Assembly (NCBI GenBank): GCA_022844125.1
Contig: JALHMI010000015.1
Span: 62,001 to 126,000 of the forward strand
Source of the DNA: Pirellulales bacterium
GTDB taxonomy: Bacteria; Planctomycetota; Planctomycetia; Pirellulales; PALSA-1355
Reading direction: 5' to 3'
Length of the DNA stretch: 64,000 nucleotides
Below the pieces are notes generated by a model. The model saw only the letters and a program-made list of their open reading frames with translations. It was not told the origin of the DNA and made no database searches. Positions 1 through 16,751 of this stretch are shown in pieces; within the stretch, counting starts at the first letter, position 1, and every line of letters starts with the position of its first letter. The position numbers were made by a program, and so were the translations under genes.

Positions 1-3000
1 GCATCGCCAGCCAGTTGCATCTGCTTCTGGCAGAGAAAATACGGCAGCATCACGCGTTGTTCATAGATCTGCGCGAAGTCCGCAGGATTGAAGCGATCGA
101 ACTTCGTGTCATCGCGGAGCGCGGTGAGAAACAGATGCGTAAGGGGTTGTTGTTGCCAGAGCGTTTCCAACTCGGCGACTGCAGCTTCGGTCGAGGTCTC
201 GCGCAGTCGGATGACGGTCGCCCCGCTCGCCGTGATCCGGTTGGCCAGCGCATCAGCCAAGGCGTTGGTTCCTTGAATTGCGACTGCGCCCTTCCAGGTC
301 GGAAACTCGGCAGGCTGCTTTTCCCAAGGGGTGGGGACGATGCGAAGCACGAACCGCACGCTGTCGGGATCGACCGCGGCCGGATCCTGCAAATCGCGAG
401 AAGTTGGCGCTTCCGCTTGTATGAGTGGCGCGGACGGTGCGACGAGTTCTGCCGGATCGCCCGCAGGTGCGCTGGGCAGCAGTGCCCCGATGTGGACGCG
501 CTGGCGAATCGCTCCGCAGTGGATGAGCAGATCGCCGCGGGCGGCATCGACAACCGCCGACAGCTTCAAGGAGCCATTCCCGGGAACTTCGCCCAAAAGT
601 GCGAGTAACTCGCCGGCGTCTTGCGGTTGCCGACCACTGGCGAGGCGAGCGCGGAGCCAATTGAACCGCGTCAGCGAAGCTTCGGGCACAGCCCGCGATG
701 ACGCGCCCAGCACGCAGTGATTTGCGGCGATCACGAGGTCGGCCGCGGGTTGCTCGATGTAGTTGCGGCCGTCGTGTTCTGCCGCGGCAAGGCGTCCGGC
801 CTGCTGATCGCTGAGGCAGGCGGTCCAGCCGCGCGTCGCATGGGCTTGCTGCAAGCCGCGCGAAGCGTGTTCCAGCGAGCCGCTGCGCTGCAGGATGCCA
901 TCGACGCGGACGGCCATGCTGGAAGCGCTGCCGTTCGTGGTGGCCACGGTATCGACTAGTGTGCCGGTTGAAGCAGCCAGTCCATTGCCATTCAAGCCGA
1001 CCAGGCTGCCGATAATCCCGGTAAAGGTGACAGTAGCGCATGCCCAGCCGTGGTCGGGCTCGCGCACCAGGACGAGCGGCGTGAGCATCTCGGCCAGGGC
1101 AGGGGGCAGCGACAGTTCGCCGGACAGGCCATGCAGGACCTGGGTCTTGCCGCCCGAGGTGTTGACGAGCGCAACCTGGGCGGCACTGGCCGCAAAGTCA
1201 GGCAGCACGGCGAGATTCAGCGCGGCCAGGTTGCCGAGCGGCACTTCGACAGCGTCGGCCAGACCGCGCAGCTCTTCGAGCTGCGCCGGCGTGAAGTAAC
1301 GCTCGGGATTGGTGCGCGCCTCAGCCGGAATGGGCAGTTCACCCCAATCGCCGTCGGTCAGATCAGCGATTCGCCTCAGGAGGCGTCGAATTTCCGTTTT
1401 TTTTTCCGCGCCGTGCTGGAAACCCAGCTCATAGGCGCTGCCGCGAACGTGCAGGACGTCGACCTGGGCTGAGCCAGTGGCGGCGATGCCGGCCGCCGAC
1501 GTCTCGGTGGTCGGGGCGTTCGAGGAGGGGGTGGCCGCCGAAGTCGTTATCGGGGCGCCAGCCTTGGTCGGCGCTTTGGCCAGGAAGTTCACGATGTGCC
1601 GCAGCGTCGGGAAGTCGTCGAGCGTCAGGCCGTCGGTCGGCGTGACGTCGAAGTACTCCTGGAGCTCACCGAACATCTGGGCCTTTTTGATGCTGTCGAT
1701 GCCGAGGTCCGCCTCCAGGTCGGCGTCGAGCTCCACGACTTCGGGCGGATAGCCGGTTTGCTCGACGACAAAGTTCACTAGAAAGGCTTCGAGCTCGCCT
1801 GTATCGACGCCGGCCGTGGGCTGTGTGGCGGCTGCTTGGGCGATGGGCTCCGCTTGCGGAGTGGCTACGCTCGCCGTCGGTGCTGGCGCCGGAGCGGGTG
1901 CCGGTGCTTGGGTTGCGGGCAGAGCTTGTGCAGCCGGTTGCGCCGCACTGGCCGCGGTCGTGACCGGAGCGCCTGCTTTCGTCGGCGCTTTGGCCAGGAA
2001 GTTCACGATGTGCCGCAGCGTCGGGAAGTCATCGAGCGTCAGGCCGTCGGTCGGCGTGACGTCGAAATACTCCTGGAGCTCGCCGAACATCTGGGCTTTC
2101 TTGATGCTGTCGATGCCCAGATCGGCTTCCAGGTCCGCATCCAGCTCGACAACTTCCGGCGGATAGCCGGTTTGCTCGACCACGAAGTTCACCAGGAACT
2201 TCTCGAGCTCGGCCATGTCGACGGACGCCGCCGGTTGAGCTGGGGCGGGCGCGACTGCCACTTGCGGCTTGGGCGCACTGGCAACCGGAGCCGGAGCAGG
2301 TGCCGGAGCAGCGGCGATCGGCGCCGGGGCAACAGGCGCTGGTGCCGGCGCTGGTCTTGGCGCGGGGGCGATGGGCGCTGCGACGACCGGCGGAGCAACG
2401 GGAGCCGGAGGAGATGGGGGCTTCGGCGTTGCGGCCGTCTTCGTTGCGGCGGCACGCATCTTCTCGCGGCGGCGGGCCGTTGCATCGAAGTGGAAAATCT
2501 CTCCGTGTTTGCTGGGGGCCGCCACAGTTGCAACCGGTGCGACGGGCTGCTGACCGCGCGGACGATCGAGTGCCCCCGTGCATTCAAGCATTGCCTGGAC
2601 GCGGACGACTTGCTCGATGCCGGGCCGCGAAGGATTGTCGCAGGCGATGCCGGCCAGTTCCTGCGGAGGCAGGATCCGCCGATTGAGCCGGGTGAGTGCC
2701 TGCTGCGGGCCGACTTCAACAAACACGGTCGGGGCCTGTGCGGCGAGCTTGCGCACCAGGTCGGCATAGCGGACGGGTGTCGTCAGGTGGGCCACGAGGT
2801 TGCGGCCGATCTCGCTCGGCTCGCGCACGACGTCGTTGTTCGCCACGCTGTAGGTCGTGACCCGCGGCAGGGCGAACTTCTCTCCGGCGATCGCCCGGTG
2901 GAACATTTCGCCGGCCGGCCGCATGAGCGGCGTGTGGAATGCACTCGGCACCTGCAGCTTGCGCGTTTCGAACAGCGACTGTTGAAGCATCGCCTCGAGT

Positions 3001-6000
3001 TCGGCCAGCGCCGGCAGCGTTCCCCCGACCACGGTCTGATCCGGCGCGTTGTGATTCGCCACATACGCCGGGCCGCTGAGCCGCGGCGTCAGGCTCTCGA
3101 TCATCTCGGGCGTTGCGGTCGTGGCCAGCATGCCGGTCTGTCCACCGGGCTGCGCGTCGATCGATTCACAGCGGCGACGCGTGACGCGAATCGCCTGCTC
3201 AAGATTCCAGGCCCCGGCGGCAAAAAGTGCCGGGTATTCGCCATAGCTGTGACCGGCAACCAGATCGGGCTCGATGCCCCGCTCTCGCAGGGCGGCCAGC
3301 ATCAACACGTCGGCCAGCAGCATCGAGATCTGCGTGGTCCAGACATCTTTGCCCAGCGGCGAGGTTTCATCCCAGGCAAGCGTCGGCCAACTGGGAAAAC
3401 CGAGCCCGCGCATCGTGGCGTCAATTTCGGCCTGTTGGCGAGCTGCGGCCGGAACTTCAGCCACAAGCTGCTTGAGCATGCCCGAGTACTGGGAACCTTG
3501 TCCCGGAAACAGGAACGCGATGCGGGTATTTGGATTGGCTTCGCGATAGAAGATGCCCTGTTGTTCAAGCACGGTCTGCGAAGCCGGGTTGTCGAGTTGC
3601 TTGAGTGCGGTGGCGAGTCGGCTGGTCAACGTCGAGACGTTGTCCGCCACGATCGCCAGTCGGAAGCGGTCGCCGGCGGTGAACTTGCGCTGGCTTGCGG
3701 CAGTAAAGGCGTTGGGATCGCTTTGGGCCGCGGTCGCCCATGCGCGGAGTGCGGCTGGATCGGTAGCGCCGAAGCGACAGATTTGCCACGGCGAAGAAGC
3801 CGCGACCGATGGAGCGGAACTGGCGGCGATTGCCGGCGCTGCTTGAGGCTGCGGAAGCGCGACGACTGGAGCGGGAGCAACGGCCACGGCCGGCGCCGCA
3901 ACGGGAACCGGCGCTGCTTGCGGAGCGCTGGCCGCGGTCGTAACGGACGCTCCGGCTTTCGTCGGCGCCTTGGCCAGGAAGCTGACGATGTGCCGCAGCG
4001 TCGGGAAGTCATCGAGCGTCAAGCCGTCGGTCGGCGTGACGTCGAAGTACTCCTGGAGCTCGCCGAACATCTGAGCCTTCTTGATGCTGTCGATGCCAAG
4101 ATCGGCTTCCAGGTCGGCGTCGAGTTCGACGACTTCCGGCGGATAGCCGGTCTGCTCGACCACGAAGTTCACGAGGAACTTTTCGAGCTCGGCCATGTCG
4201 ACAGATGTCTGGGAGTGATTGGCGGGTTGAGCAGCGACAGGGACGGGAGCAGCTCCATTCTGATAGGCCGCTGCACCATTGAGTGCTGCTGCCGGTGCAG
4301 GAGCAGGCTCCGGATGCGGCGCACCGGCCGTGGTCGTAACGGGCGCTCCGGCTTTCGTCGGAGCCTTGGCCAGGAAGTTCACGATGTGCCGCAGCGTCGG
4401 GAAGTCGTCGAGCGTGAGGCCTTCCGTCGGCGTGACGTCGAAGTACTCCTGTAGTTCGCCGAACATCTGGGCCTTCTTGATGCTGTCGATGCCCAGATCG
4501 GCTTCGAGATCAGCATCGAGCTCGACAACCTCCGGCGGATAGCCGGTCTGCTCGACGACGAAGTTCACCAGGAAGCTTTCGAGCTCGGCCATATCCACAG
4601 ACGAACTGACCGGGGCAGCGGCTGCGACAGGTTGAGCTTGGGGAGCCGCGGCGGCTCCGGGACGTTTTACTTCCACGCGGCTGCCGTATTCGAGCACGGC
4701 GTGATAGGCCAGGCCGCGCGAGCACGTGCCCACCGCAGCGAGGCGACGACCGTCGGCCGTGGTGTAGTCAATCGCGGTCCGAGCAGTCGGCGCTGCGAGC
4801 AGACCATCCTGCTGCTTGATCGCGGTGGCAGGTGTTTGCATGCCGACCGGCGGAGGCAGTTCGCCGTGGCTGACTTCCAGGATCGCCTTGAGCATCGACA
4901 CCAGCGAGCTCGCACCCTGCGTGTTGCCGAGTTGGCCCAGCACCGAGCTGATCATCAGCGGATGCTCGCGTCCATCGCGACCGTGAATGTTGGCGACGGC
5001 CCGAATCTCTTCAGCAGTCGTGGCCGGATCGCTCAGGGCATCGAGTTCCATGACGGCAACATCCGACGGCTTCGCGTTCGGGCCGAATGAACGCTCCATC
5101 GCCAGCTCGAGTGCCTTGCCCCACGAGTTGTGATCGTGAGCAGCGCCGACTCCTCGGAGGATCGCGTGAATGCGGTCGCCGTCGCGCTGGGCATCGGCCA
5201 GCCGCTTGAGCAGCAACACCACGACACCTTCGCCCGGCACGCAGCCGGCGGCCCCGGCATCCAGCGGCGAGCGAGGTGAGCCCTGCGCCAAATCGCCACT
5301 CAGGGCGAGGCTCTCATACATCGGCCAGCCCATCCGACGCTGTCCGGCGGCGCAAATCATCATGTCGCAATCGCGCGCCAGCAGCATGTCGACGCTGATC
5401 GACAGCGCGGCGAGGCCTGACGACTGACCGGCGTCGATCGCGGCGGCGCCGCCCATCAGGTTCCAAGTCTTGCCGATGCGCGAGGCCAGCGAGCTGGTGC
5501 TGAAGCTGCCGGTCTCGTCGATGAGCGCCGGCCAGGCCTTGAGCATGGCTTCGCCATAGTCCTTGCCCGCTTGCTTGGCGCTGTCGACCGTGAAGCCGCG
5601 CTTCGTGAGCAGGGCTTCGATGTGCCGCTCGAGTTCCGGAATTCGCAGCCCGAGTTGCAACTGGAACGAAAAGTCGCCACCGAACTCGGTGCCAACCACA
5701 ACACCGACGTTTTCGCGATTGAAGGGCTTTGCGTCGTAGCCGGCGTCCTTCATCGCCTGATCGCTGGCTTCCAGCAGCATGAACTGCAAGGGATCGGCCT
5801 GCTGGACCTGCTTCGGCGGTACCTTGTGACGCTTCCAGTCGTATTCGAAACCGTGGATGAAGCCGCCCACCAGGCTGTTCGGGTCGGGCGCCGCGCCTTG
5901 AGCCGAGCGAATCGCCACGGCCGGGTTCCAGCGATCGGCCGGAATCGGTCCCTTGGGATCGACGCCGCCCGAAAGCAGATTCCAGAAGGCCGTCGGATTC

Positions 6001-7526
6001 TCGGCGCCAGGGAGTACGCAGCCCAGACCGATGACGGCGATGGCCTGCTCATCGGCAGTGAGCATGTCCTGCGGCGGGCCGGGCATTGCGGCAGCCAGCG
6101 CGCGGCTCGATTCGAGATACTCATCGACCGCCACGTGCATGTTCAATCCGCCAATGCCGAACGCATTGCAGCCCGCGCGGCGCGGCTTGCCATCGGCCCG
6201 CTTGGGCCAGGGCTGGGCGGCAGTTGGCACGTAGACCGGCGAGTTGGCCCAGTCGATGTTCGGATTGATTTCCTTGATGTTGATCGCCGGCGGCACGGTC
6301 TCATTGTTGATCGCGAGCACCGCCTTGATCACGCCCGCGATGCCGGCCGTTTCGAGCGTGTGACCGATGTTGGCCTTCACGCTGGTAATCGGAATCTTCT
6401 TGTCCGGTGGAAACGCCGCGCCGAGGATGCCTTTGAGCGTGTTGAGTTCGGTCGCGTCGCCCAGCTTGGTTGCCGTGGCGTGAGCTTCGACATAGTCGAG
6501 GTCGGCCACCTCGAGGCCATCGCGATAGGCCCGCTCCATCGCCTTGGTCTGACCTTCCTTGCGCGGAGCCCACAGGCTCTTGCCCTTGCCGTCGGACGAG
6601 ACGCCGAGCCCGCGTACCACGGCCAAGACCTTGTCGCCATCGTCGAGGGCGCGCTTGAGCGTTTTCATTACCACCGCGACGTAGCCTTCGCCGACGATCA
6701 GGCCATCCGCATCGGCATCGAACGGACGCGTGCCGGTCGCACTCATGGCCCGCGCGTTCGAGAACAGCACCAGCGAGTCGCTCTTGCAATCCGAGGCGCC
6801 GCCGACGATCGCCATGTCCACACGGCCCAGTTGCAACTGCCGGGCGCCGAGCAACATCGCTTGCAGCGACGATGCGCACGCCGAGTTGATCGCCACGTAC
6901 GGTCCGTTCAGCCCAAACGCCTTGTTGATCGCCCCGGCGACAAGGCTGGCCGAGACGTCGGGCGTTTCAACTGTCGGATGCGGCAGCGGTGCCCGGACGC
7001 GCTGGATGAGTTCGTCGATGACCGCCTGCTGTTCGTGCGGCGGAAGCTGCTGGAAGGCCGGTACCTGCCGCAGAAACTCGGCGGCCTCGGCCATACAGGT
7101 GGAGTAGGTGTGGTCGCCGGCCAGGGTAGTTCCCTGGGCGTGCCCGACGTAAACGCCGGTATTGCGCAGCGGAACGTTGAAGGGATCCATGCCGGCGTGC
7201 TTGAGGGCAGCGGCGGCGACGTCGCACATGATCAGATGCGCGGCATCCACGCTGGCGGCAAGCTTCGGGTCGATCGGCAGTTGGCTCAGGTCGACTGCCC
7301 GGCTGCTGAGGGTCGCGGCCAGTTTCGAGTAGGTCTTTCCGCGAACCCCGACCTCCGGATCGAAGTACATATCCTCGTCGAAACGGTCGGCCGGCATCTC
7401 GGCGACGGCATGCCCGCCACCGACCAGCATTTGCCAGTACTGCTCGAGGTTATCCGCGCCAGGCAGGCGACATGCCATGCCCACGATGGCCAGCGGAATT
7501 TGATGCGGAGAATAGCGGTCGGCCAT
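1..7526 (-). CDS. Large iterative type I PKS / PUFA-synthase-like multidomain synthase (partial, runs off left edge)
   Basis: Open from ATG at 7526 to base 1 without a stop: 2508 codons plus two bases. Domains in order: ketosynthase, residues about 10-460, with active-site Cys217 in NSACASS and both His motifs (EAHATAT and NIGHTLE); a second ketosynthase fold, about 495-910, with Gln701 in place of Cys (DAGQSSG) and no catalytic His; ACP1 (Ser1015) and ACP2 (Ser1147), each in LGIDSIKK; acyltransferase, about 1335-1630, with GHSYGEY (Ser1427) and a PSAFH motif suggesting malonyl use; ACP3 (Ser1807) and ACP4 (Ser1945); a C45/penicillin-acyltransferase-like domain, about 2020-2345; then what looks like the start of a ketoreductase region. 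Ala/Pro-rich linkers join the ACPs. The LGIDSIKK type of ACP and the malonyl-type AT resemble PfaA/HglE secondary-lipid synthases. The product is unknown. No convincing Shine-Dalgarno site precedes the ATG. Later domains lie outside the window. Confidence 0.9.
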   Translation of the reverse strand, partial: MADRYSPHQIPLAIVGMACRLPGADNLEQYWQMLVGGGHAVAEMPADRFDEDMYFDPEVGVRGKTYSKLAATLSSRAVDLSQLPIDPKLAASVDAAHLIMCDVAAAALKHAGMDPFNVPLRNTGVYVGHAQGTTLAGDHTYSTCMAEAAEFLRQVPAFQQLPPHEQQAVIDELIQRVRAPLPHPTVETPDVSASLVAGAINKAFGLNGPYVAINSACASSLQAMLLGARQLQLGRVDMAIVGGASDCKSDSLVLFSNARAMSATGTRPFDADADGLIVGEGYVAVVMKTLKRALDDGDKVLAVVRGLGVSSDGKGKSLWAPRKEGQTKAMERAYRDGLEVADLDYVEAHATATKLGDATELNTLKGILGAAFPPDKKIPITSVKANIGHTLETAGIAGVIKAVLAINNETVPPAINIKEINPNIDWANSPVYVPTAAQPWPKRADGKPRRAGCNAFGIGGLNMHVAVDEYLESSRALAAAMPGPPQDMLTADEQAIAVIGLGCVLPGAENPTAFWNLLSGGVDPKGPIPADRWNPAVAIRSAQGAAPDPNSLVGGFIHGFEYDWKRHKVPPKQVQQADPLQFMLLEASDQAMKDAGYDAKPFNRENVGVVVGTEFGGDFSFQLQLGLRIPELERHIEALLTKRGFTVDSAKQAGKDYGEAMLKAWPALIDETGSFSTSSLASRIGKTWNLMGGAAAIDAGQSSGLAALSISVDMLLARDCDMMICAAGQRRMGWPMYESLALSGDLAQGSPRSPLDAGAAGCVPGEGVVVLLLKRLADAQRDGDRIHAILRGVGAAHDHNSWGKALELAMERSFGPNAKPSDVAVMELDALSDPATTAEEIRAVANIHGRDGREHPLMISSVLGQLGNTQGASSLVSMLKAILEVSHGELPPPVGMQTPATAIKQQDGLLAAPTARTAIDYTTADGRRLAAVGTCSRGLAYHAVLEYGSRVEVKRPGAAAAPQAQPVAAAAPVSSSVDMAELESFLVNFVVEQTGYPPEVVELDADLEADLGIDSIKKAQMFGELQEYFDVTPTEGLTLDDFPTLRHIVNFLAKAPTKAGAPVTTTAGAPHPEPAPAPAAALNGAAAYQNGAAPVPVAAQPANHSQTSVDMAELEKFLVNFVVEQTGYPPEVVELDADLEADLGIDSIKKAQMFGELQEYFDVTPTDGLTLDDFPTLRHIVSFLAKAPTKAGASVTTAASAPQAAPVPVAAPAVAVAPAPVVALPQPQAAPAIAASSAPSVAASSPWQICRFGATDPAALRAWATAAQSDPNAFTAASQRKFTAGDRFRLAIVADNVSTLTSRLATALKQLDNPASQTVLEQQGIFYREANPNTRIAFLFPGQGSQYSGMLKQLVAEVPAAARQQAEIDATMRGLGFPSWPTLAWDETSPLGKDVWTTQISMLLADVLMLAALRERGIEPDLVAGHSYGEYPALFAAGAWNLEQAIRVTRRRCESIDAQPGGQTGMLATTATPEMIESLTPRLSGPAYVANHNAPDQTVVGGTLPALAELEAMLQQSLFETRKLQVPSAFHTPLMRPAGEMFHRAIAGEKFALPRVTTYSVANNDVVREPSEIGRNLVAHLTTPVRYADLVRKLAAQAPTVFVEVGPQQALTRLNRRILPPQELAGIACDNPSRPGIEQVVRVQAMLECTGALDRPRGQQPVAPVATVAAPSKHGEIFHFDATARRREKMRAAATKTAATPKPPSPPAPVAPPVVAAPIAPAPRPAPAPAPVAPAPIAAAPAPAPAPVASAPKPQVAVAPAPAQPAASVDMAELEKFLVNFVVEQTGYPPEVVELDADLEADLGIDSIKKAQMFGELQEYFDVTPTDGLTLDDFPTLRHIVNFLAKAPTKAGAPVTTAASAAQPAAQALPATQAPAPAPAPAPTASVATPQAEPIAQAAATQPTAGVDTGELEAFLVNFVVEQTGYPPEVVELDADLEADLGIDSIKKAQMFGELQEYFDVTPTDGLTLDDFPTLRHIVNFLAKAPTKAGAPITTSAATPSSNAPTTETSAAGIAATGSAQVDVLHVRGSAYELGFQHGAEKKTEIRRLLRRIADLTDGDWGELPIPAEARTNPERYFTPAQLEELRGLADAVEVPLGNLAALNLAVLPDFAASAAQVALVNTSGGKTQVLHGLSGELSLPPALAEMLTPLVLVREPDHGWACATVTFTGIIGSLVGLNGNGLAASTGTLVDTVATTNGSASSMAVRVDGILQRSGSLEHASRGLQQAHATRGWTACLSDQQAGRLAAAEHDGRNYIEQPAADLVIAANHCVLGASSRAVPEASLTRFNWLRARLASGRQPQDAGELLALLGEVPGNGSLKLSAVVDAARGDLLIHCGAIRQRVHIGALLPSAPAGDPAELVAPSAPLIQAEAPTSRDLQDPAAVDPDSVRFVLRIVPTPWEKQPAEFPTWKGAVAIQGTNALADALANRITASGATVIRLRETSTEAAVAELETLWQQQPLTHLFLTALRDDTKFDRFNPADFAQIYEQRVMLPYFLCQKQMQLAGD
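1561..1799 (-). repeat. ACP-encoding repeat copy 4 (ACP4)
   Basis: One of four in-frame, near-identical DNA segments of about 240 bp inside the synthase gene. It encodes ACP4, with phosphopantetheine Ser1945 at bases 1692-1694. The copies differ mainly at third codon positions, which points to recent duplication or gene conversion. Confidence 0.85.
1975..2219 (-). repeat. ACP-encoding repeat copy 3 (ACP3)
   Basis: In-frame repeat encoding ACP3, with Ser1807 at bases 2106-2108. It follows a long Ala/Pro linker that comes after the acyltransferase domain. Confidence 0.85.
3955..4201 (-). repeat. ACP-encoding repeat copy 2 (ACP2)
   Basis: In-frame repeat encoding ACP2, with Ser1147 at bases 4086-4088. 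It lies directly before the linker that leads into the acyltransferase domain. Confidence 0.85.
4351..4594 (-). repeat. ACP-encoding repeat copy 1 (ACP1)
   Basis: In-frame repeat encoding ACP1, with Ser1015 at bases 4482-4484. It follows the inactive ketosynthase-like domain. Confidence 0.85.
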
Positions 7527-7746
7527 GATCGGTGATTCGCCAAATAAGGGTCAGTTGGTTGCGGATTCACCTCCCTGCCAGGCGGCGCTTCATCACCGCG
7601 ACTCGTTCCCTCCCTGGGATAGATTTTCAGTTGGCACGAGCGCTGTTCGCTCACGGCGCTGAAGCGAGCCCGCGCCTGCGCCGCGCGAACGCACTTGTAA
7701 GGCTGGTTGCACCGCAATCGCCCTCGCGGCACAGTTGGTTGTTGCG

Positions 7747-9219
7747 TTAGGCCTTCAACGGTTGGGGTGTTCGGTCTTCCGCCGCACGGGTTGTGATTAC
7801 CTGCTGGAGCGCGGACTTCAATTCGCTAAGTCGCTGCGATGCGCCTTGAACCACCAGGCGTCCGGAGTTAATCGATTCGTCGATCGAAAGTTCACCACTG
7901 GCCAAGGAGCCGAAAGTCGCGGCGCTCAAGTGGAAACCGGCCGCAACGGGCGTCGGTAGCCCGGGCTCGGCGCTCGCGACGCGTCCGCCCGCGATGTGCA
8001 GTTGCCACTGTCCGCCGCCGGCGCCGGTGACTTGCAGGGCCACGGGCGTGGTGCTTCCGTTTGCCGTTAGATTAGCCAGCAGCGGCTGCAGGTGCGCGCC
8101 GACGTTGCAGGCAGCCGCGGGGCGCTCGTGCCGCGGGGCAATGAAGTTTCGCTCCACGGGATAGCGAGAAATGCTCATCAGAACGTCAGCCGTCATCTTC
8201 GGCGATGGCAGGTGTGGCAACGCGGCCCGGGTGTTCGTCAGATCGAACTTCGGATCGTCGCGCCAGTGCGACTGGTAGATCGACATGTACTCGTAGAACA
8301 AGGCTTCGAGGGTCTGCAACTCGGACTCCGAGATCGAAGTCGCCAGTTGCTTGGGATAGTGCTTTTGGATTGCTTCGGCCACAACACGCTGAATCTCGAG
8401 CACGGGCACCGGATCGGCCGAGGCCAGGTGGTAGGTCTTGCCGTGATGTTCGGGTCGCGTGACCAGCGTGACAATCGCCTCGCTGAGCCAGTCCACAGGC
8501 ACGAGGTTCTTGCCTTCGTCCCCCTTCAGCCCAAGCTTCGAGTAGAACCGGTCGTTCATCTGCTCGACAGGTACTCGTCCGGCCATGGTGTGAGCCAGTT
8601 GCAGCGGCAGGTAAAAGCCGTGGAAACTGGTCACGTACCCGCTTTTCGAATCGCCGACGACGCTGGCCGGGCGATAGAAGGTCCGCTGCTCAAGGAAGTC
8701 AGCCGAGCGGATCAACTTCTCGGCGGCGAGCTTGCTTTGTTCGTAGACATTGCCGAGCGTCTGGCCGACGTCGATGTCGCTTTCGAGGATCTGACCCTGT
8801 CGCAGACCGCAGATGTAAGCGGTCGAAACCTGGTGGAAGTGCCGAATGCCGGTCGTGCGGCAGAGCTCCAGCAGGTGTTTGGTCCCCTCGACGTTCGTGC
8901 GGAAGGGTTCGCCGCGCTTGTCCTCGCGGAAGGTCATGCTGGCGGCACAGCTCAGGATGCGATCGCAGTGCGAAGCGATCCAGGATCGCTGGCCGGCGTC
9001 GGGCACCACCTCGTCGAGGCAGAGGTCCCCTTCAATGACAACCGGACGCGGCAAGCAGCGGCCCGCCTGCTGCTCCCAGTAGCCCATGATCCCTTCGAGC
9101 GTGGCAGGACCTTTACCTGGACGGACCATGGCGGCGACGGGGACATCCGCGGCCAACAGGTCGCGCAACAGATGGCGACCCACAAGTCCGGTCGATCCTG
9201 TCAGCAAGATGTACGACAT
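7747..9219 (-). CDS. Thioester reductase (extended SDR) fused to an SCP2-like lipid-binding domain
   Basis: About 490 residues. The first ~365 form an NAD(P)-binding extended SDR of the thioester-reductase/male-sterility type: GSTGLVGRHLL at the N-terminus for the dinucleotide, a serine-tyrosine-lysine set with YEQSK, and substrate-domain motifs further on. The last ~110 residues read like an SCP2 sterol-carrier domain, with alternating hydrophobic strands and a G-L-V-V-Q-G-A turn near the end. Such reductases release ACP-bound acyl chains as aldehydes or alcohols, as in heterocyst glycolipid synthesis, so it probably unloads the neighbouring synthase. I chose the ATG at 9219 because the GSTGLVG motif follows at once and a CGAGGT ribosome-binding site lies just upstream; an open frame extends to 9255. 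A 220-base gap separates it from the synthase. Confidence 0.8.
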   Translation of the reverse strand: MSYILLTGSTGLVGRHLLRDLLAADVPVAAMVRPGKGPATLEGIMGYWEQQAGRCLPRPVVIEGDLCLDEVVPDAGQRSWIASHCDRILSCAASMTFREDKRGEPFRTNVEGTKHLLELCRTTGIRHFHQVSTAYICGLRQGQILESDIDVGQTLGNVYEQSKLAAEKLIRSADFLEQRTFYRPASVVGDSKSGYVTSFHGFYLPLQLAHTMAGRVPVEQMNDRFYSKLGLKGDEGKNLVPVDWLSEAIVTLVTRPEHHGKTYHLASADPVPVLEIQRVVAEAIQKHYPKQLATSISESELQTLEALFYEYMSIYQSHWRDDPKFDLTNTRAALPHLPSPKMTADVLMSISRYPVERNFIAPRHERPAAACNVGAHLQPLLANLTANGSTTPVALQVTGAGGGQWQLHIAGGRVASAEPGLPTPVAAGFHLSAATFGSLASGELSIDESINSGRLVVQGASQRLSELKSALQQVITTRAAEDRTPQPLKA

Positions 9220-9438: not shown

Positions 9439-10287
9439 TCAATTTCGCGCCGTCGTATCGACGGCCACGAACTCTTTTTTGGCATCTTTGGCCACCCGGC
9501 TGATCGCCACCCGGGGATCGTGATTCCACAGAACCAACCACCGCTCGTCGGCTGCGCGGGTCAGCAGTTCAGGCTTCCGGCGGCGGGTGTCCAGCGGATA
9601 GGTGTCGTAGGCCAGATGCCACATCCGCCGCAGGTGGACAGTCGAGGGGCAGATGTCCCCGAGGTATGCGGCCGTCTGCCCACCAGACTCGAAGTATAAG
9701 GCCATGTGGCCCCGGGTATGACCACCAGTAATCTGACACCGAAGGCCAGGGACGATCTCCTGGCCGTCCTCGACCACGTGCATCAGCCCCGCTTCGTACA
9801 GCGGTAGGATGTCCTCCATCGGGTAAGCCGTCTCAAGTTCGGGCGCGCGGCCTGTCGCGTCTTCCCATTCCAGCCGGCCGACGAAGTGTCTAGCGCGGCC
9901 GAAAATGGGTACGCGGCGCTGCTGGTCATCGAAGCGCGTCGCGCCACAGACGTGATCGAAGTGCAGGTGGCTGAAGACCACGGTGTCGATGTCCTCCGGT
10001 GCGACGCCCAACGCTGCGAGGCTGGCAATCAACGGCTCGCCTTCTTCCATCTGATAGAACCGTCGGTCGAGCTTGGCAAACTTGCCACCGTAGCCGGTAT
10101 CGATCAGGACGGTATGACGGCCGTCGCGGGCGAGCACGCAGTTGTTCGCGCACTGGATGCGATTGAGTTCATCCGGTGGGGCGACGTTCTTCCAGATCGT
10201 CCGCGGGACGACACCGAACATTACGCCGCCGTCGAGCCAGAACAGGCCGCCGTTGAGCGAATCGAGTTGCCAGTTCCCAAGGTGCAT
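9439..10287 (-). CDS. Metallo-beta-lactamase-fold hydrolase
   Basis: 282 residues, the usual length for a single-domain MBL-fold enzyme. The zinc-binding motif HLHFDH is at residues 107-112, followed by a GGHTRGH segment near residue 190, a GD-containing loop (YLGDI) and a C-terminal NHD segment, as expected for a dinuclear metal site. There is no signal peptide. It lies between the acyl-AMP ligase (55 bases upstream) and the thioester reductase (219 bases downstream) on the same strand. MBL-fold thioesterases are common helpers of iterative polyketide synthases, so hydrolysis of a thioester or lactone intermediate is a reasonable guess, but the substrate cannot be read from the sequence. Confidence 0.8.
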   Translation of the reverse strand: MHLGNWQLDSLNGGLFWLDGGVMFGVVPRTIWKNVAPPDELNRIQCANNCVLARDGRHTVLIDTGYGGKFAKLDRRFYQMEEGEPLIASLAALGVAPEDIDTVVFSHLHFDHVCGATRFDDQQRRVPIFGRARHFVGRLEWEDATGRAPELETAYPMEDILPLYEAGLMHVVEDGQEIVPGLRCQITGGHTRGHMALYFESGGQTAAYLGDICPSTVHLRRMWHLAYDTYPLDTRRRKPELLTRAADERWLVLWNHDPRVAISRVAKDAKKEFVAVDTTARN

Positions 10288-10342: not shown

Positions 10343-11806
10343 CTAAGGGAGTTGATCGCGAAGGATCTTGCCGGCCGGGGACCGGGGGAGCGTTTCGAGG
10401 GGCAGTATGCGCTCGGGTCGCTTGTAATACACGAGGTGCTTCTCGCAGTGTGCGCGGATGATTTGCACGTCGAGCGTGCCGTCGACGACGACTGCCGCCT
10501 TGATGAACTGGCCCCCGCTCTTGCGAGAACCGGCGTAGACTTTCACCTCGACCACGCCGGGAATGGCCGCGATGACTTCCTCGACTTCGGAGGGGATGAC
10601 CTTGAGCCCCTCGACGTTGATCACTTCTGCCTCGCGGCCAAGCAGGTGAATCTGGCCGAGTTCGTCGATTCGTGCCAGGTCGCCCGTTTCGAACCAGCCA
10701 CCCTCAAGCATCGAGGTATCCGGACCGTTGGCACCGAGGTAGCCAGCCATCATCGAACTGGAGCGAACGAACAGCCGGCCGACGTCGGGCGTGGCGCCAA
10801 CTTGATCAGGATGGGGCCGCACCTGGGCTTCGACTCCGTTCATCGGCGGGCCGACGCAGCTTCCGGCCACCTGCTGATCGCCAGCGGGGGCGACGGTGAT
10901 CCCACCGGTTTCGGTAGTTCCGTACAGTGGCCGCACGCGAATGCCGGTCTTGGCGGCGAAGCGCTCGGCGGTTCGTTCGCCAAGCGGCGAGCCGGCCGAA
11001 AGCACGGTCTTTACCGCCCCACGCAACTGCTCCGCACCGCCGAAGAGCAGCACGTCGAGCATCGCCGGTACTGCCGGCAGAATTGTCACTCGCTCTTCGG
11101 TCACACCCTGCAAGACCTTGCTAGCCGCAAACGCCCGCATTGAAACGATCGACGCCCCGCTGAGCAGCGACACCATCACGCACATGCCGTAGGCGTAGGC
11201 GTGACACATCGGCGCGATCGCCATGATCGTGTCGTCGGCCGTGACGCCAATGGTCTCAATGTAATGGCGAGCTTCTTCGGTGGCGGCGAAGCCGGGGCGA
11301 ACCGCGACCTTCGGCACGCCGGTCGTACCAGACGTCGGATGTAACGGAACCGCAGCGAGTTTGCCATATGCCTGGCTGAAACCGGGAAGCGAGAGGCGAA
11401 CCTTGGCCGCGCCCAGCTGCAGCCAGTCGCCCGCCGAAAGCGCCGCGATCGGTAGCTCTTCAGCCGCGAGATCGGCGAGCGGACACTCATCACTGAGGAT
11501 CAGGCTCGCTCCGAACTTGAGTGCCGTTCGTTTGAGCTCGGCGGCCGGCGTACGCGGATGCACCAAAAGCGGCGAGCCGCCGACGCTCAGCACCGACACC
11601 AGCGCCGTGACGAACTGAGGGCCGTTGCTGACCGAGATCACGACCCGCTCGGCCGGTTCCAGGCCCAGCGAAGTCAGACGCTCAGCAAGTTGACCGCGGG
11701 CAATGTGAAAGTCGTCGGCTTCGACGGTGCGCGCGGCATCCAGATCGACGAACCTTCCCCGATACCGGGCAGCGGCATCCAGAATCGGTTGCGGCGAAAG
11801 GTCCAT
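10343..11806 (-). CDS. AMP-dependent acyl/fatty-acid ligase (ANL superfamily)
   Basis: 487 residues with the adenylate-forming core motif TSGTTGVPK at residues 158-166, a YGTTETGG motif in the mid-region, an FETGDLARID segment typical of the A7/A8 hinge, and the C-terminal catalytic Lys480 in SPAGKI. It activates a carboxylate to an acyl-AMP and passes it to CoA or an ACP. The start ATG lies three bases after the aminotransferase stop, so the two are probably translated together. In this context it could load a starter acid on the synthase or activate an acid to be joined to an amino product. The exact substrate is not determinable. It is a little short, with a compact N-terminal domain compared with full-length FadD proteins. 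Confidence 0.85.
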   Translation of the reverse strand: MDLSPQPILDAAARYRGRFVDLDAARTVEADDFHIARGQLAERLTSLGLEPAERVVISVSNGPQFVTALVSVLSVGGSPLLVHPRTPAAELKRTALKFGASLILSDECPLADLAAEELPIAALSAGDWLQLGAAKVRLSLPGFSQAYGKLAAVPLHPTSGTTGVPKVAVRPGFAATEEARHYIETIGVTADDTIMAIAPMCHAYAYGMCVMVSLLSGASIVSMRAFAASKVLQGVTEERVTILPAVPAMLDVLLFGGAEQLRGAVKTVLSAGSPLGERTAERFAAKTGIRVRPLYGTTETGGITVAPAGDQQVAGSCVGPPMNGVEAQVRPHPDQVGATPDVGRLFVRSSSMMAGYLGANGPDTSMLEGGWFETGDLARIDELGQIHLLGREAEVINVEGLKVIPSEVEEVIAAIPGVVEVKVYAGSRKSGGQFIKAAVVVDGTLDVQIIRAHCEKHLVYYKRPERILPLETLPRSPAGKILRDQLP

Positions 11807-11809
11807 GCT

Positions 11810-13165
11810 CTAGGCCAACAGCACGGCGCGGGCCGCGTCTTCGATCCGCTCCAGCACCGTCGCAATGTCTTCGTGCGAGTGCGCGGTCGAGAGGAACATC
11901 GGCTCGAACTGGTTCGGGTGGAAGTACACGCCCGAGCGTTGAAGTTGATGCTGGAAGCGGATGAACTTCTCAAAGTCGCAGTTCTGACGCACTTCGCGGT
12001 AATTCAGCAGGGGGCCGACATCATCGTGCGTCAGGAACATCGAAAGCATCGGGCCGACGTATTGTACCTGATGCGGAACACCCAACCGAGTAAGAATCTC
12101 GTCGATTCCATCGCCCAACTGGGCAGCGATGGCGTCCAGGTGAGTGTAAATTGCCTCGCCGTGGCGATGCATTTCATCGAGCGCCGCGTCGGCAGCCGCC
12201 ATGACCATCGTGTTGCCCGAGTAGACGCCGCCGTGGAACAGCTTGCCTTCGACAATCGACTGCATGATCTCCTTGGTACTGCCCAATGCCGAGATCGGGA
12301 AGCCGCCGCCAAGCGCCTTGCTGAGGATCGTAATGTCGGCTTCCACGCCGAAACGCTGCTGGGCACCGCCGGCGGCGACTCGCATGCCGGTGATGACTTC
12401 GTCGAAGATCAGCAACGCCTCGTGGTCTTTGGTCATTGCCCGGACGTTGTCCAGGAAGTCGGGTTCCGGGGCAATGACGCCGCCGTTACCCATGACCGGT
12501 TCCATGATCACGGCGGCTACCTGACCCTGGTGATCCTTCAAGCACTGCTCGAGCGCCTCGGGCGAGTTCCAGCGGCAAACCAGCACGTCGCGCGGGGCGC
12601 CGTTCATCCCCATCGTGCCCGGAAGTGCGGGGCCATAGGGCCCTGCGGGCAATTGTTCGATCGGGGCGTGGTAGCGATGGAAGATGTTATCGCTGGAACC
12701 GTGGTAGTGACCTTCGAACGCGATGATGTATCTCTTGCCGGTGAATGCCCTCGCGAGCCGCAGCGCCGCAACGATGGCTTCGGTGCCAGTGCTGGAGAAA
12801 CGCAAGAGTTCGATGTGCGGGAACAGTCCCTTCACCTTTTCGGCGACGCGCACGGACACTTCCGCGGGAAAGCCGAGCTGCGTCCCGCTCTCGGTTATCT
12901 GGCGGACCACGGCATCAAGGATAGCCGGCGGACGATGTCCGAAGATCAGCGGCCCATAGGCCATGTTCAGATCGATGTACGACTGTCCGTCGATGTCCCA
13001 GACGCGTGAGCCTTCGCCGCGCGTGGCTACCAGCGGCAGATGATAGGGGAGCACACGCATGGTGCTGTTATCACCGCCGGCGATGCTGTGGCGAGCGCGA
13101 GCTAACAACCGCTCCGAGCCGGTAGAAACGTTCTCGTGCACTTTTCCGTTCGTGAGCTGCGTCAT
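11810..13165 (-). CDS. Class III PLP-dependent aminotransferase (glutamate-1-semialdehyde-aminomutase-like)
   Basis: 451 residues. Visible landmarks are the substrate/cofactor segment SSTGTEA near residue 125, Asp255 in IFDEVITG, and the PLP-binding Lys283 in ILSKALGGG. The fold is that of HemL-like enzymes, but the location argues against a haem role: it heads a run of lipid-synthase genes and is followed at three bases by an acyl-AMP ligase. GSA-type aminotransferases occur in polyketide loci, where they aminate beta-keto thioesters (as in mycosubtilin/iturin synthases) or aldehydes released by thioester reductases. A chain aldehyde from the reductase in this locus is therefore a plausible substrate; that is inference. 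A strong promoter lies about 120 bases upstream. Confidence 0.85.
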   Translation of the reverse strand: MTQLTNGKVHENVSTGSERLLARARHSIAGGDNSTMRVLPYHLPLVATRGEGSRVWDIDGQSYIDLNMAYGPLIFGHRPPAILDAVVRQITESGTQLGFPAEVSVRVAEKVKGLFPHIELLRFSSTGTEAIVAALRLARAFTGKRYIIAFEGHYHGSSDNIFHRYHAPIEQLPAGPYGPALPGTMGMNGAPRDVLVCRWNSPEALEQCLKDHQGQVAAVIMEPVMGNGGVIAPEPDFLDNVRAMTKDHEALLIFDEVITGMRVAAGGAQQRFGVEADITILSKALGGGFPISALGSTKEIMQSIVEGKLFHGGVYSGNTMVMAAADAALDEMHRHGEAIYTHLDAIAAQLGDGIDEILTRLGVPHQVQYVGPMLSMFLTHDDVGPLLNYREVRQNCDFEKFIRFQHQLQRSGVYFHPNQFEPMFLSTAHSHEDIATVLERIEDAARAVLLA

Positions 13166-13521: not shown

Positions 13522-16026
13522 TTACTCGTAGGAAATGGCTGATAGTACGTTGAGCCGCGAGGCCCATAAGCCCGGTCTCCAGGCAGCGAAGAGCGCGATG
13601 AGGAGGCAGCCGCCGGCATTGGCCGCCAGCAACCAGGGATGCAATTCGAAAGGGACCGAACGCCCGAGGACCGGGCCATTGCACAAGTGGATCACGATCG
13701 CCGTGGTAATGCCGCCCAGCGTGCCAAGGATCGCGCCCATGAGCCCCAAGAGCAACGACTCGCACAACACCAACCACCGGGTTTGCCCCGGTGTTAGGCC
13801 GATGATTCGTAGTAATCCCAGCTCGCGCGTTTGCTCCAGGACGTTCAGTGTCAGTGTGTTGGCCACCGCAACGCCCCCCACGATGAAGCCCACGGCCAGC
13901 AAGCCCCATAGCGCGAACACGATGCCGTTGATCAGCCCGTCGAGCTGCGACCGCATTTCAATGAACGACTGGACGACCATGCCTTCCTCGGTCACCAATT
14001 CTTGTAGTTGTTTGGTGAGCTCTGCGACCGAGGTGTCGCTCATCGCGTAAACGATCATGAAATACGGCGGTCCGAGCGTGATGAGCCCGGCGGCCGCCTG
14101 TTGGTTCATGTAGACGCAGCGTCCGCCTTGCATGTAGTCGTTCACAACAGCCGCGATTCGCCGCTCAAAGACGCGGCCCTGGATCTCCAGCCGCAGCGTA
14201 TCGCCGGGTGCTAAACCGAGCTGGCCGGCCAGGACATTGCCCAAAGCTACTTCACCCGCGGTAAGTCGGTTCCGAAGGTCGGCCTGCTCGACCTCCGAGA
14301 GTGCCCAGGGAAGCTCGATTTCGGGTTTGAAATCGCGCACCACACACAGCGCGGATGCCCCGTTCACTTTGGCCGAGAGCAAACGAATCTGGACTACCGA
14401 CGCAACGCCGGCCTGCTGCTCGACGTTGTTTTCGATTTCGCTGCCAGGCGCCCGGGCAGTTGTTTCGTCGAGCGCAGCCGGATCGGTCAGAAACACGTCG
14501 CCGGCTAGGGATCTCCGGTACCAGCTACGCACGTCTGCGACGTTATTGATGATGGCCGTGCCCAGGCCGAGCCCGGATGACAGCGCGACGACGAGGACAC
14601 CGATCGTCAGTCCCGTCCGCGTGGAGCGGGCCAGGAGCTGGTCAGCGCCGAGTTGTCCTTCGACCCCCCAGCCACGTGCCAGGACTCGCGCCACAACTAA
14701 CATCGGACGAACCACGGCAGGGATGATCGCCACAAAGGCCACGAGCATCAGGATGCCGGCGGGAATCGCCGCGGCTGGCGGCAACCGCTTGTCCACGACT
14801 AGCCAGACCAGCGCCACGGACACGGTCCAACACGCGAGTCCGGCGACGACTGCCCGAACGGGAAGCCGCTCCGCGCGGCGGACCTCCGCGTCTCCCATCG
14901 CTTCGGCGGCGTTCATACGACGCGCCTGCAGAGCAGGCACGATCGCGGCAACTCCGGCCATCAATGGTCCCAACACCAGCACGCCGGCGACGGTTGTCAG
15001 CGAGACCTCTGGTGCCCGAGCGGTCACGCCGAGCAGAGCCGCCATCACTTGCTCGAGCCCCCAGCCCATGAGGATCCCCAGCGGGATGCCGACGACCGCG
15101 CCCAGCACGCCGAGCAGCAATCCCTCGACGAGATGCACGGAAAATAACTGCTCGCTGGTTGCACCCAAAACGCGCACAACCGCGAAATCTCGCCGTCGTT
15201 CGCTGAAGTTCAGCCGCAGCGTGTTGAGGATGATAAATGCCGCCATAGCGATCGAGAACGCTCCCGCGAGCCGCAAGGCAAGCTGCGTCGAGCGAAAAGT
15301 CGTATCGATCATCTCGGTGGCGGCCGCCGGCGTTTGCACGAACAGCTCCCCCGGCAGTTGCTCCGCCAGGGCCACTTGCGCCGCGTCGCGATCGTCCGCC
15401 GAGCTGAGGAGGACGCGAACCCGGTCGACTTGATTCTTGAGATCAAAGACCTGCTGGACATCATCGATCGGCAGGGCCAGGCTGGTCGCTGGAGCCATCG
15501 CGGCCAGGGCGCCCGCGTCCCCCAGGCCGACGATCATCGCCGTTTTCGGCGGGCGGGCGATAATCGTCACTCTATCGCCGATCTTGGCGCCCATGGCTTG
15601 AGCGACGTCGGCCGAAAGCACGGCCTCACCGGATTTCGTGGGCCTGTGACCGTCGGTCAGCAGCAATGCTTCCCAAGCGGATTCGTTCTCCAGCGGCAGC
15701 CCCGCAACCACGGTGCTGAATCGTTTGCCTTTCACCCGAGCACGCGTGGCACGGCTGGTGACGGGAATCGCTGCTTTTGCCCCGGGAACGCCATCGATGC
15801 TGGGGGCCAGATCGGGCGAGAACCGGCCGCCCGCCGTGGCCACAACTTCAATCGCCGGGAATTTGTCGACGGCCGAATTGAGTTCGCTCATCCCCCGCCG
15901 CACGCCCGACTGCGCGAGGACGGTCCCCAAAACCGTGGCGATCGCGATCGCCACGCTGGCGACGGAGAGAACCGTGCGCGCCGGCCGTTGACGCCACGAA
16001 CGCACGATCAGGTGCAAGAGATTCAT
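13522..16026 (-). CDS. ABC transporter permease with two FtsX-type lobes (LolE/MacB superfamily)
   Basis: 834 residues, about twice the length of a single LolC/LolE subunit. An N-terminal membrane segment after [11 protein letters not shown] is followed by a large extracytoplasmic domain, then two blocks of three membrane spans with an FtsX signature (NTLRLNFSERRRDFAVVR near residue 275 and the paralogous NTLTLNVLEQTRELGLLR near 725), so one chain carries two FtsX lobes. The start at 16026 overlaps the ATPase stop in ATGA, which implies translational coupling; an open frame extends to 16188 but would run inside the ATPase gene. These type VII exporters move lipids, lipoproteins or peptides out of the membrane, so export of the product made downstream is likely but unproven. 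Confidence 0.88.
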   Translation of the reverse strand: MNLLHLIVRSWRQRPARTVLSVASVAIAIATVLGTVLAQSGVRRGMSELNSAVDKFPAIEVVATAGGRFSPDLAPSIDGVPGAKAAIPVTSRATRARVKGKRFSTVVAGLPLENESAWEALLLTDGHRPTKSGEAVLSADVAQAMGAKIGDRVTIIARPPKTAMIVGLGDAGALAAMAPATSLALPIDDVQQVFDLKNQVDRVRVLLSSADDRDAAQVALAEQLPGELFVQTPAAATEMIDTTFRSTQLALRLAGAFSIAMAAFIILNTLRLNFSERRRDFAVVRVLGATSEQLFSVHLVEGLLLGVLGAVVGIPLGILMGWGLEQVMAALLGVTARAPEVSLTTVAGVLVLGPLMAGVAAIVPALQARRMNAAEAMGDAEVRRAERLPVRAVVAGLACWTVSVALVWLVVDKRLPPAAAIPAGILMLVAFVAIIPAVVRPMLVVARVLARGWGVEGQLGADQLLARSTRTGLTIGVLVVALSSGLGLGTAIINNVADVRSWYRRSLAGDVFLTDPAALDETTARAPGSEIENNVEQQAGVASVVQIRLLSAKVNGASALCVVRDFKPEIELPWALSEVEQADLRNRLTAGEVALGNVLAGQLGLAPGDTLRLEIQGRVFERRIAAVVNDYMQGGRCVYMNQQAAAGLITLGPPYFMIVYAMSDTSVAELTKQLQELVTEEGMVVQSFIEMRSQLDGLINGIVFALWGLLAVGFIVGGVAVANTLTLNVLEQTRELGLLRIIGLTPGQTRWLVLCESLLLGLMGAILGTLGGITTAIVIHLCNGPVLGRSVPFELHPWLLAANAGGCLLIALFAAWRPGLWASRLNVLSAISYE

Positions 16027-16751
16027 GGCCGCTCGTCCCACGCCTGCGCGGCACTCAAAGAAGACTCCGCTGGCGTTGCGTGCTCTTCGACAATCAAGCC
16101 GTCCTGCATCACGAGCACGCGCGACGCACTCCGGGCCATGTGCGGATCGTGGGTCACCATCACGATCGTTTGTCCCTGGGACGCGCACCCGGTGAGCAAC
16201 TCCAGAATTCTTCCGGCATTATGACTGTCTAGCGCGCCGGTTGGTTCGTCTGCCAAAATCACCGCCGGTTCGATCACCAGTGCTCTGGCGATCGCCACGC
16301 GCTGCTGTTCGCCGCCGGACATTTCATGGGGATAGTGAGAATGGCGATGAGCGATCGCGGTTCGCTCCAGCGCCGCTTTGGCCCTGGCAATTGCCTCGGC
16401 TTTAGAGACGCCGTCGATCCGCAGCGGCAGGGCCACGTTCTCAACGGCGCTGAGCGTCGGCAACAGATTGATGCGTTGGAAGACAAAGCCCATCCGCCTT
16501 CGGCGCAGAATGCTGCGCGCTGTATCGTCAAGGGAGCCAAGTTGCTGACTATCGAGCAGCACCTCGCCGGTCGTGGGAGGTTCGATTCCGCCGAGCACGT
16601 GCAACAGCGTGCTCTTGCCACAGCCCGAGGGGCCCATAACAGCAAGGAATTCGCCGCGTTCGACCACCGCACTCACTCCGGCCAGCGCCCGAACTTGCGC
16701 ATGCCCTGCGCCATAACTCTTCGTGACGTTGGTGGCGACCAGGAGTGACAT
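16023..16751 (-). CDS. ABC transporter ATP-binding protein (LolD/MacB type)
   Basis: 242 residues. Walker [10 protein letters not shown] is at residues 40-48, the signature MSGGEQQR and the Walker [13 protein letters not shown] follow, with a switch His in VTHD. The length and the ADEPTGALD motif are those of the LolD/MacB/FtsE family, which pairs with FtsX-type permeases. It overlaps the permease gene by four bases (ATGA) and is transcribed first. It powers the exporter on the cytoplasmic side. No clear Shine-Dalgarno site precedes the ATG. Confidence 0.92.

Follow-up and report, generated by a model that had tools for sequence, protein, structure and literature searches.

The window, the whole stretch of 64,000 nucleotides that was analysed, carries at its left end most of a megasynthase gene. 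A six-frame reading gives an open frame of 3769 residues on the minus strand (C15:58244-69550), which runs from window position 7550 past base 1, so that its 3' end lies about 3.76 kb left of the window edge. With numbering from the ATG at 7526, the Cys217 and Gln701 named in a preliminary description of this DNA are both exact. Plus-strand open reading frames at 4800-7500 were considered as the source of the protein and rejected; they are unrelated, and the gene lies on the minus strand. The synthase has the following features in the window.

1..7526, minus strand: megasynthase gene, N-terminal two thirds (ATG at 7526; remainder left of the window)
6111..7502, minus strand: KS1, catalytically complete ketosynthase (Pfam, catalytic and invariant columns; Cys217 codon 6878-6876; EAHATAT, KANIGHT)
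4671..6059, minus strand: KS2, dead ketosynthase read as a chain-length factor (CLF) (Gln701 codon 5426-5424; both His lost; DETGSF..LASR motif)
4341..4598, minus strand: ACP1 (LGIDSI; Pfam and repeat comparison)
3936..4193, minus strand: ACP2 (Pfam and repeat comparison)
2631..3533, minus strand: acyltransferase (AT) domain (GHSYG; FabD-like by NCBIfam match)
1971..2228, minus strand: ACP3 (Pfam and repeat comparison)
1551..1808, minus strand: ACP4 (Pfam and repeat comparison)
561..1463, minus strand: C45-type Ntn acyltransferase-like domain with no Cys in the nucleophile stretch, a putative second pseudoenzyme of the chain
1..353, minus strand: beginning of the first ketoreductase region (KRa), with KRb and a dehydratase (DH) encoded left of the window

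The neighbouring genes within the window are these.

7747..9219, minus strand: NAD_binding_4 thioester/fatty-acyl reductase with a C-terminal SCP2-like domain (upstream neighbour, also in many relatives)
9439..10287, minus strand: MBL-fold hydrolase, similar to the quorum-quenching lactonase YtnP (match below the curated cut-off)
10343..11806, minus strand: AMP-dependent acyl ligase (neighbourhood annotation)
11810..13165, minus strand: class III aminotransferase, glutamate-1-semialdehyde type (neighbourhood annotation)
13522..16751, minus strand: ABC transporter, FtsX/MacB-like permease and ATPase (neighbourhood annotation)

The complete domain order is KS1, KS2, ACP, ACP, AT, ACP, ACP, C45-type, KR, KR, DH. 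KS1 and KS2, which match PF00109 with 177 and 153 bits in a six-frame scan, are the only KS domains found on the 229-kb contig. Tyr is kept in both KRs, LGIDSI in each of the four ACPs and GHSYG in the AT. The ACP-coding stretches (window 1551-4598, minus strand) are four near-identical repeats, each 300 bases long and with 80-87% identity to a reference copy; the ACPs are split here in pairs either side of the AT, and in most close relatives all of them follow it. The order KS-CLF-AT is found in most relatives of the window protein. The PfaA model TIGR02813 of NCBIfam is matched with 1024.2 bits against a curated cut-off of 1010.1 bits, spread over nine stretches, and the relative L058 lies below that cut-off with 684.7 bits. 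The protein departs from the PfaA layout (KS-MAT-ACPn-KR(-DH), with no CLF) in that KS2 sits between KS1 and the AT, and from the PfaC layout (KS-CLF with FabA-like DH, no KR or ACP, and a separate PfaA) in carrying ACP, AT and KR on the same chain.

The catalytic columns (Cys, Lys and two His) were read from an alignment of 219 KS domains. The preliminary description had taken the first KS as complete and the second as dead, and in the window protein both statements hold. KS1 shows the motifs NSACASS, EAHATAT and KANIGHT, with Cys217 and both His, and C-K-H-H is found in 82/82 alignable first-KS rows of the family. KS2 reads IDAGQSS, ELDALSD and GQLGNTQ, with Gln701 for Cys and both His motifs replaced; because these motifs occupy the same alignment columns as those of KS1, the His residues of KS2 do not realign elsewhere. 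This contrast between first and second KS is not due to chance. Across the family, Cys and the first His are gone from all 87 second-KS rows (0/87 for each) and the Lys column is lost in nearly all, but 61/87 rows retain His in the second His column, the loss of both His being limited to the branch of the window protein and a few others; these KS counts describe sampled sequences and not independent events, because the rows include near relatives and one row, L119_1_1, that is truncated and misaligned.

The Cys column of the 87 second-KS rows holds D 46, E 11, A 10, H 5, T 4, N 4, Q 2, S 2, G 2 and K 1. In the same alignment the PfaC CLFs have Glu or Gly in this column, and the zeamine protein Zmn11 has Glu at the Cys position (PMC3547906). 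Gln is carried by the window protein and its nearest relative, which is KSQ-like and could indicate a KSQ-type decarboxylase making the starter, acetyl-ACP from malonyl-ACP. KSQ domains, however, keep Lys and His and normally stand before the AT-ACP of a loading module. By comparison with that description, KS2 follows an active KS, lacks the first His in every row and the Lys in nearly every row, and has no conserved Gln; the variability of the column, with D in more than half of the rows, argues against a decarboxylase, and the best whole-length structural match of KS1-KS2 is a KS-CLF pair (see below). We consider the decarboxylase reading highly improbable.

The missing catalytic residues and the drifting Cys column would also suit a decaying relic with no catalytic role, retained as a scaffold or linker. 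Against this, KS2 is present at full length in nearly all sampled members, many of its columns are invariant over 41 aligned sequences, and the DETGSF, LASR and KT columns are invariant across 11 members in which the Cys column drifts, a conservation pattern that does not look like neutral decay. Furthermore, a KS2 profile finds 14/392 genomes of the phylum above 485 bits, all other matches reaching at most 273, and a KS1 profile selects the same 14/392 genomes, the strong KS1 and KS2 matches adjoining in one frame. The two domains are also predicted with confidence to fold jointly, and we give the relic reading very little credence.

That joint fold, a check which the preliminary description had proposed, comes from a KS1-KS2 AlphaFold (AF2) model built from 41 aligned sequences, with a pLDDT of 90.8 and a pTM of 0.94. 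The top Foldseek match of the model is 6RIW, the KS-CLF of PfaC, with TM-scores of 0.78/0.80 over 995 columns that span both domains at once (rmsd 4.9 Å, 24% identity), and the remaining matches listed have a query TM of about 0.4, corresponding to about one domain. The KS1-KS2 profile aligns with 6RIW in one colinear stretch of 309.6 bits. 6RIW is absent among the 50 VIA-align rows listed, which mainly cover the first KS; since one domain can fill such a list, this is not counter-evidence. The model thus predicts that both domains fold as one KS-CLF pseudo-dimer.

The phylogenetic references were PfaA/PfaC type proteins (Persicobacter, Streptomyces plasmids), ArsA-like synthases, modular KS, type II KSalpha/KSbeta, E. 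coli FabF and Moritella PfaC; the Persicobacter PfaA/PfaC labels come from domain order and match, those records being unannotated, and the Moritella sequence was taken from a HMMER alignment and ends at residue 870. A quick tree of 80 rows contained long branches, and its main groups were unchanged when it was rebuilt without the longest rows. In the careful tree KS1 forms a single clade (100/100) among the Pfa-type KS, and KS2 a single clade (100/99) beside the PfaC CLF (bootstrap/SH-aLRT 93/94), a grouping that is not a starred branch and joins two long-branched groups. Two other placements were considered for KS2 and rejected, with modular KS and with type II KSbeta: both lie away from it in the careful tree, KSbeta sitting with the type II KS, and KS2 is neither free-standing nor in the type II clade, being part of a chain of 3769 residues. 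The chain-length-factor reading of KS2 given in the preliminary description is supported by the whole-didomain match to 6RIW and by the position of KS2 in the best tree.

The same mechanism could have another origin, KS2 being a duplicate of KS1 within the family, independent of PfaC, that arrived at the CLF role by convergence. Forcing KS1 and KS2 into one clade gives an AU p of 0.149, so an in-place duplication is not rejected; the KS1 and KS2 trees show like branching, from which it follows that the two domains travelled together; and the separate position of type II KSbeta in the tree indicates that a dead KS partner arose on more than one occasion. The best tree does not make KS1 and the PfaC KS sister groups; holding them together gives p = 0.0975, so that a single clade of these two is not rejected either. 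On the other side stand the 93/94 grouping of KS2 with the PfaC CLF in the best tree and the KVPP and ASRI stretches common to KS2 and the Moritella CLF. We regard such a duplication as unlikely, though by no means negligible.

A GTDB-wide pattern scan returned 76 loci, 74 of them titled as planctomycetes and two (L080 and L129) titled only 'bacterium', in a scan that could miss distant homologues elsewhere because its patterns were drawn from this synthase family; these scans found the family in planctomycetes alone. Among its carriers are two named cultured strains, Blastopirellula marina DSM 3645 (L070) and Bythopirellula polymerisocia Pla144 (L064). Four loci have two KS-CLF pairs in tandem (KS-CLF-ACP3 followed by KS-CLF-AT...), in two adjacent frames in L089, L092 and L103 and in a single frame in L077. 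The genome of the window itself has on contig C9 another PUFA-synthase-like cluster, whose KS domains are active (L011, L012); it is formed by a frame of 3063 residues (KS, AT, ACPs, KR) and a frame of 1711 residues (KS, AT and more). On its contig C4 there is a free-standing KS-like protein (L013:5227-6714) with Glu at the Cys position, near an active FabF-like KS, with which it may form a KS/CLF-like pair.

Among known systems the closest parallel to the KS pair is the PfaC KS-CLF (Moritella marina ORF10, 6RIW), in which an active KS is likewise followed by a dead KS in one chain, with a colinear profile match, a whole-didomain fold match and a CLF that groups with the dead domain of the window protein. 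In PfaC, by contrast, the pair is accompanied by DH domains, and PfaA, the protein alongside which PfaC acts, brings a further KS; here the pair opens a chain that also contains ACP, AT, KR and DH, and the contig yielded no PfaA-type KS. The preliminary description had set the locus apart from PfaC-type enzymes as placing the pair in a separate protein; the sharing of a chain with AT, ACP, KR and DH stands as a difference, but the arrangement in cis is not the novelty, because PfaC, too, unites KS and CLF on a single polypeptide.

The 'Type R' secondary lipid synthases (Koribacter, Solibacter, Elusimicrobium, Roseiflexus) are one-chain PfaA-like proteins with a CLF, ordered KS-MAT-CLF-ACP-KR and followed by a PPTase gene (PMC3098273). 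They share with the window synthase the CLF on a single chain and the PPTase gene behind it, but, by published domain order, differ in that the window synthase has its CLF immediately behind the KS and, in addition, a C45 domain, a second KR and a DH. HglC of the heterocyst glycolipid clusters, 'Type F', has the order KS-CLF-AT (PMC3098273), which most relatives of the window protein share, and the HglC cluster contains a thioester reductase and a PPTase (PMC11804610); compared by description, its other steps are performed by separate proteins. Type II PKS KSalpha/KSbeta follow the same logic of an active/dead KS heterodimer, but are separate proteins on a different tree branch. What is unusual here is that a KS-CLF pair heads a one-chain synthase with ACP, AT, C45, two KRs and DH. 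No description of a planctomycete KS-CLF synthase or of this domain arrangement was found in the literature searched, which was covered incompletely.

The neighbourhood recalls a further system. For the zeamine cluster, a route to a long-chain amine has been proposed that uses Pfa-like proteins together with a thioester reductase and a glutamate-1-semialdehyde-like aminotransferase (PMC3547906), and in this genome too a Pfa-like synthase has a thioester reductase and an aminotransferase nearby. The likeness to zeamine/fabclavine (Zmn10-14, PMC3547906) covers the Pfa-like synthase with a CLF (Cys to Glu), the SDR, thioester reductase, aminotransferase, PPTase and ABC transporter; unlike the present protein, the zeamine synthase is split over several proteins and works with NRPS partners and a PfaD-type enoyl reductase; counterparts of these were not recognised among the neighbouring genes of the window. 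Downstream of the synthase lie a PPTase and a FabL-like SDR, and strand and spacing suggest that synthase and neighbours form one operon. In the 29 relatives in which KS1, KS2 and DH are visible, the FabL-like SDR was found in 24/29, the thioester reductase in 18/29, C45 in 15/29, PPTase in 9/29, MBL in 7/29, the AMP ligase in 4/29 and the aminotransferase in 2/29, contig ends limiting these counts. An amine step is accordingly not general to the family, given the low counts of aminotransferase and ligase. At this locus the annotated neighbours point to a long chain that may be released by reduction and possibly aminated, and we think an aldehyde or amine product conceivable, if somewhat short of an even chance.

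The C45-type domain (window 561-1463, minus strand) folds, in a model with pLDDT 84, like acyl-CoA:isopenicillin N acyltransferase (2X1C) and acid ceramidase. In the window protein the nucleophile stretch, within which the exact nucleophile column was inferred, lacks Cys; of the C45 domains in the alignment, those of L113 (which is the locus of L058) and of L090/L092 still have one. Lacking the nucleophile, the domain appears to be, after KS2, a second pseudoenzyme of this protein.

The computed evidence, from the catalytic residues, the co-occurrence of the two domains among the sampled genomes, the match of the predicted fold, the place in the tree and the gene neighbourhood, leads us to consider it very likely that KS1 and KS2 are a KS-CLF pair forming one condensing unit of a Pfa-like lipid synthase. 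We propose that this pseudo-dimer heads an iterative, PUFA-synthase-like enzyme with most domains on one chain, in which KS1 would take the growing chain on Cys217 and condense it with malonyl-ACP. KS2, presumably unable to hold an acyl group, would fill the partner position of the KS dimer and shape the chain-receiving pocket, and would thereby be expected to influence the number of rounds; it is in this sense that we infer chain-length control by KS2. The AT would load malonate onto the four near-identical ACPs, armed by the PPTase, the two KRs and the DH would process the beta-carbon, and the downstream FabL-like SDR is the likely enoyl reductase. Since no other KS was found on the contig, the KS-CLF probably performs every elongation, although the synthase might receive help in trans from a KS encoded elsewhere in the genome, for instance on C9 or C4. 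The adjacent thioester reductase would probably release the chain as an aldehyde, which the class III aminotransferase may convert to an amine for export by the ABC transporter.

More tentatively, and as a conjecture that we hold to be less likely than not, the KS-CLF may be the sole condensing unit for all elongations, the dead C45 domain may have been reused non-catalytically, for example in holding or steering the finished chain, and the products may be long-chain aldehydes or amines that are new to the planctomycetes. In PUFA synthases the KS-CLF and a second KS share elongation, and their roles are hard to separate (PMC9702510). A one-chain synthase with a KS-CLF as its only apparent condensing unit would make the control of chain length by a CLF testable in one protein.
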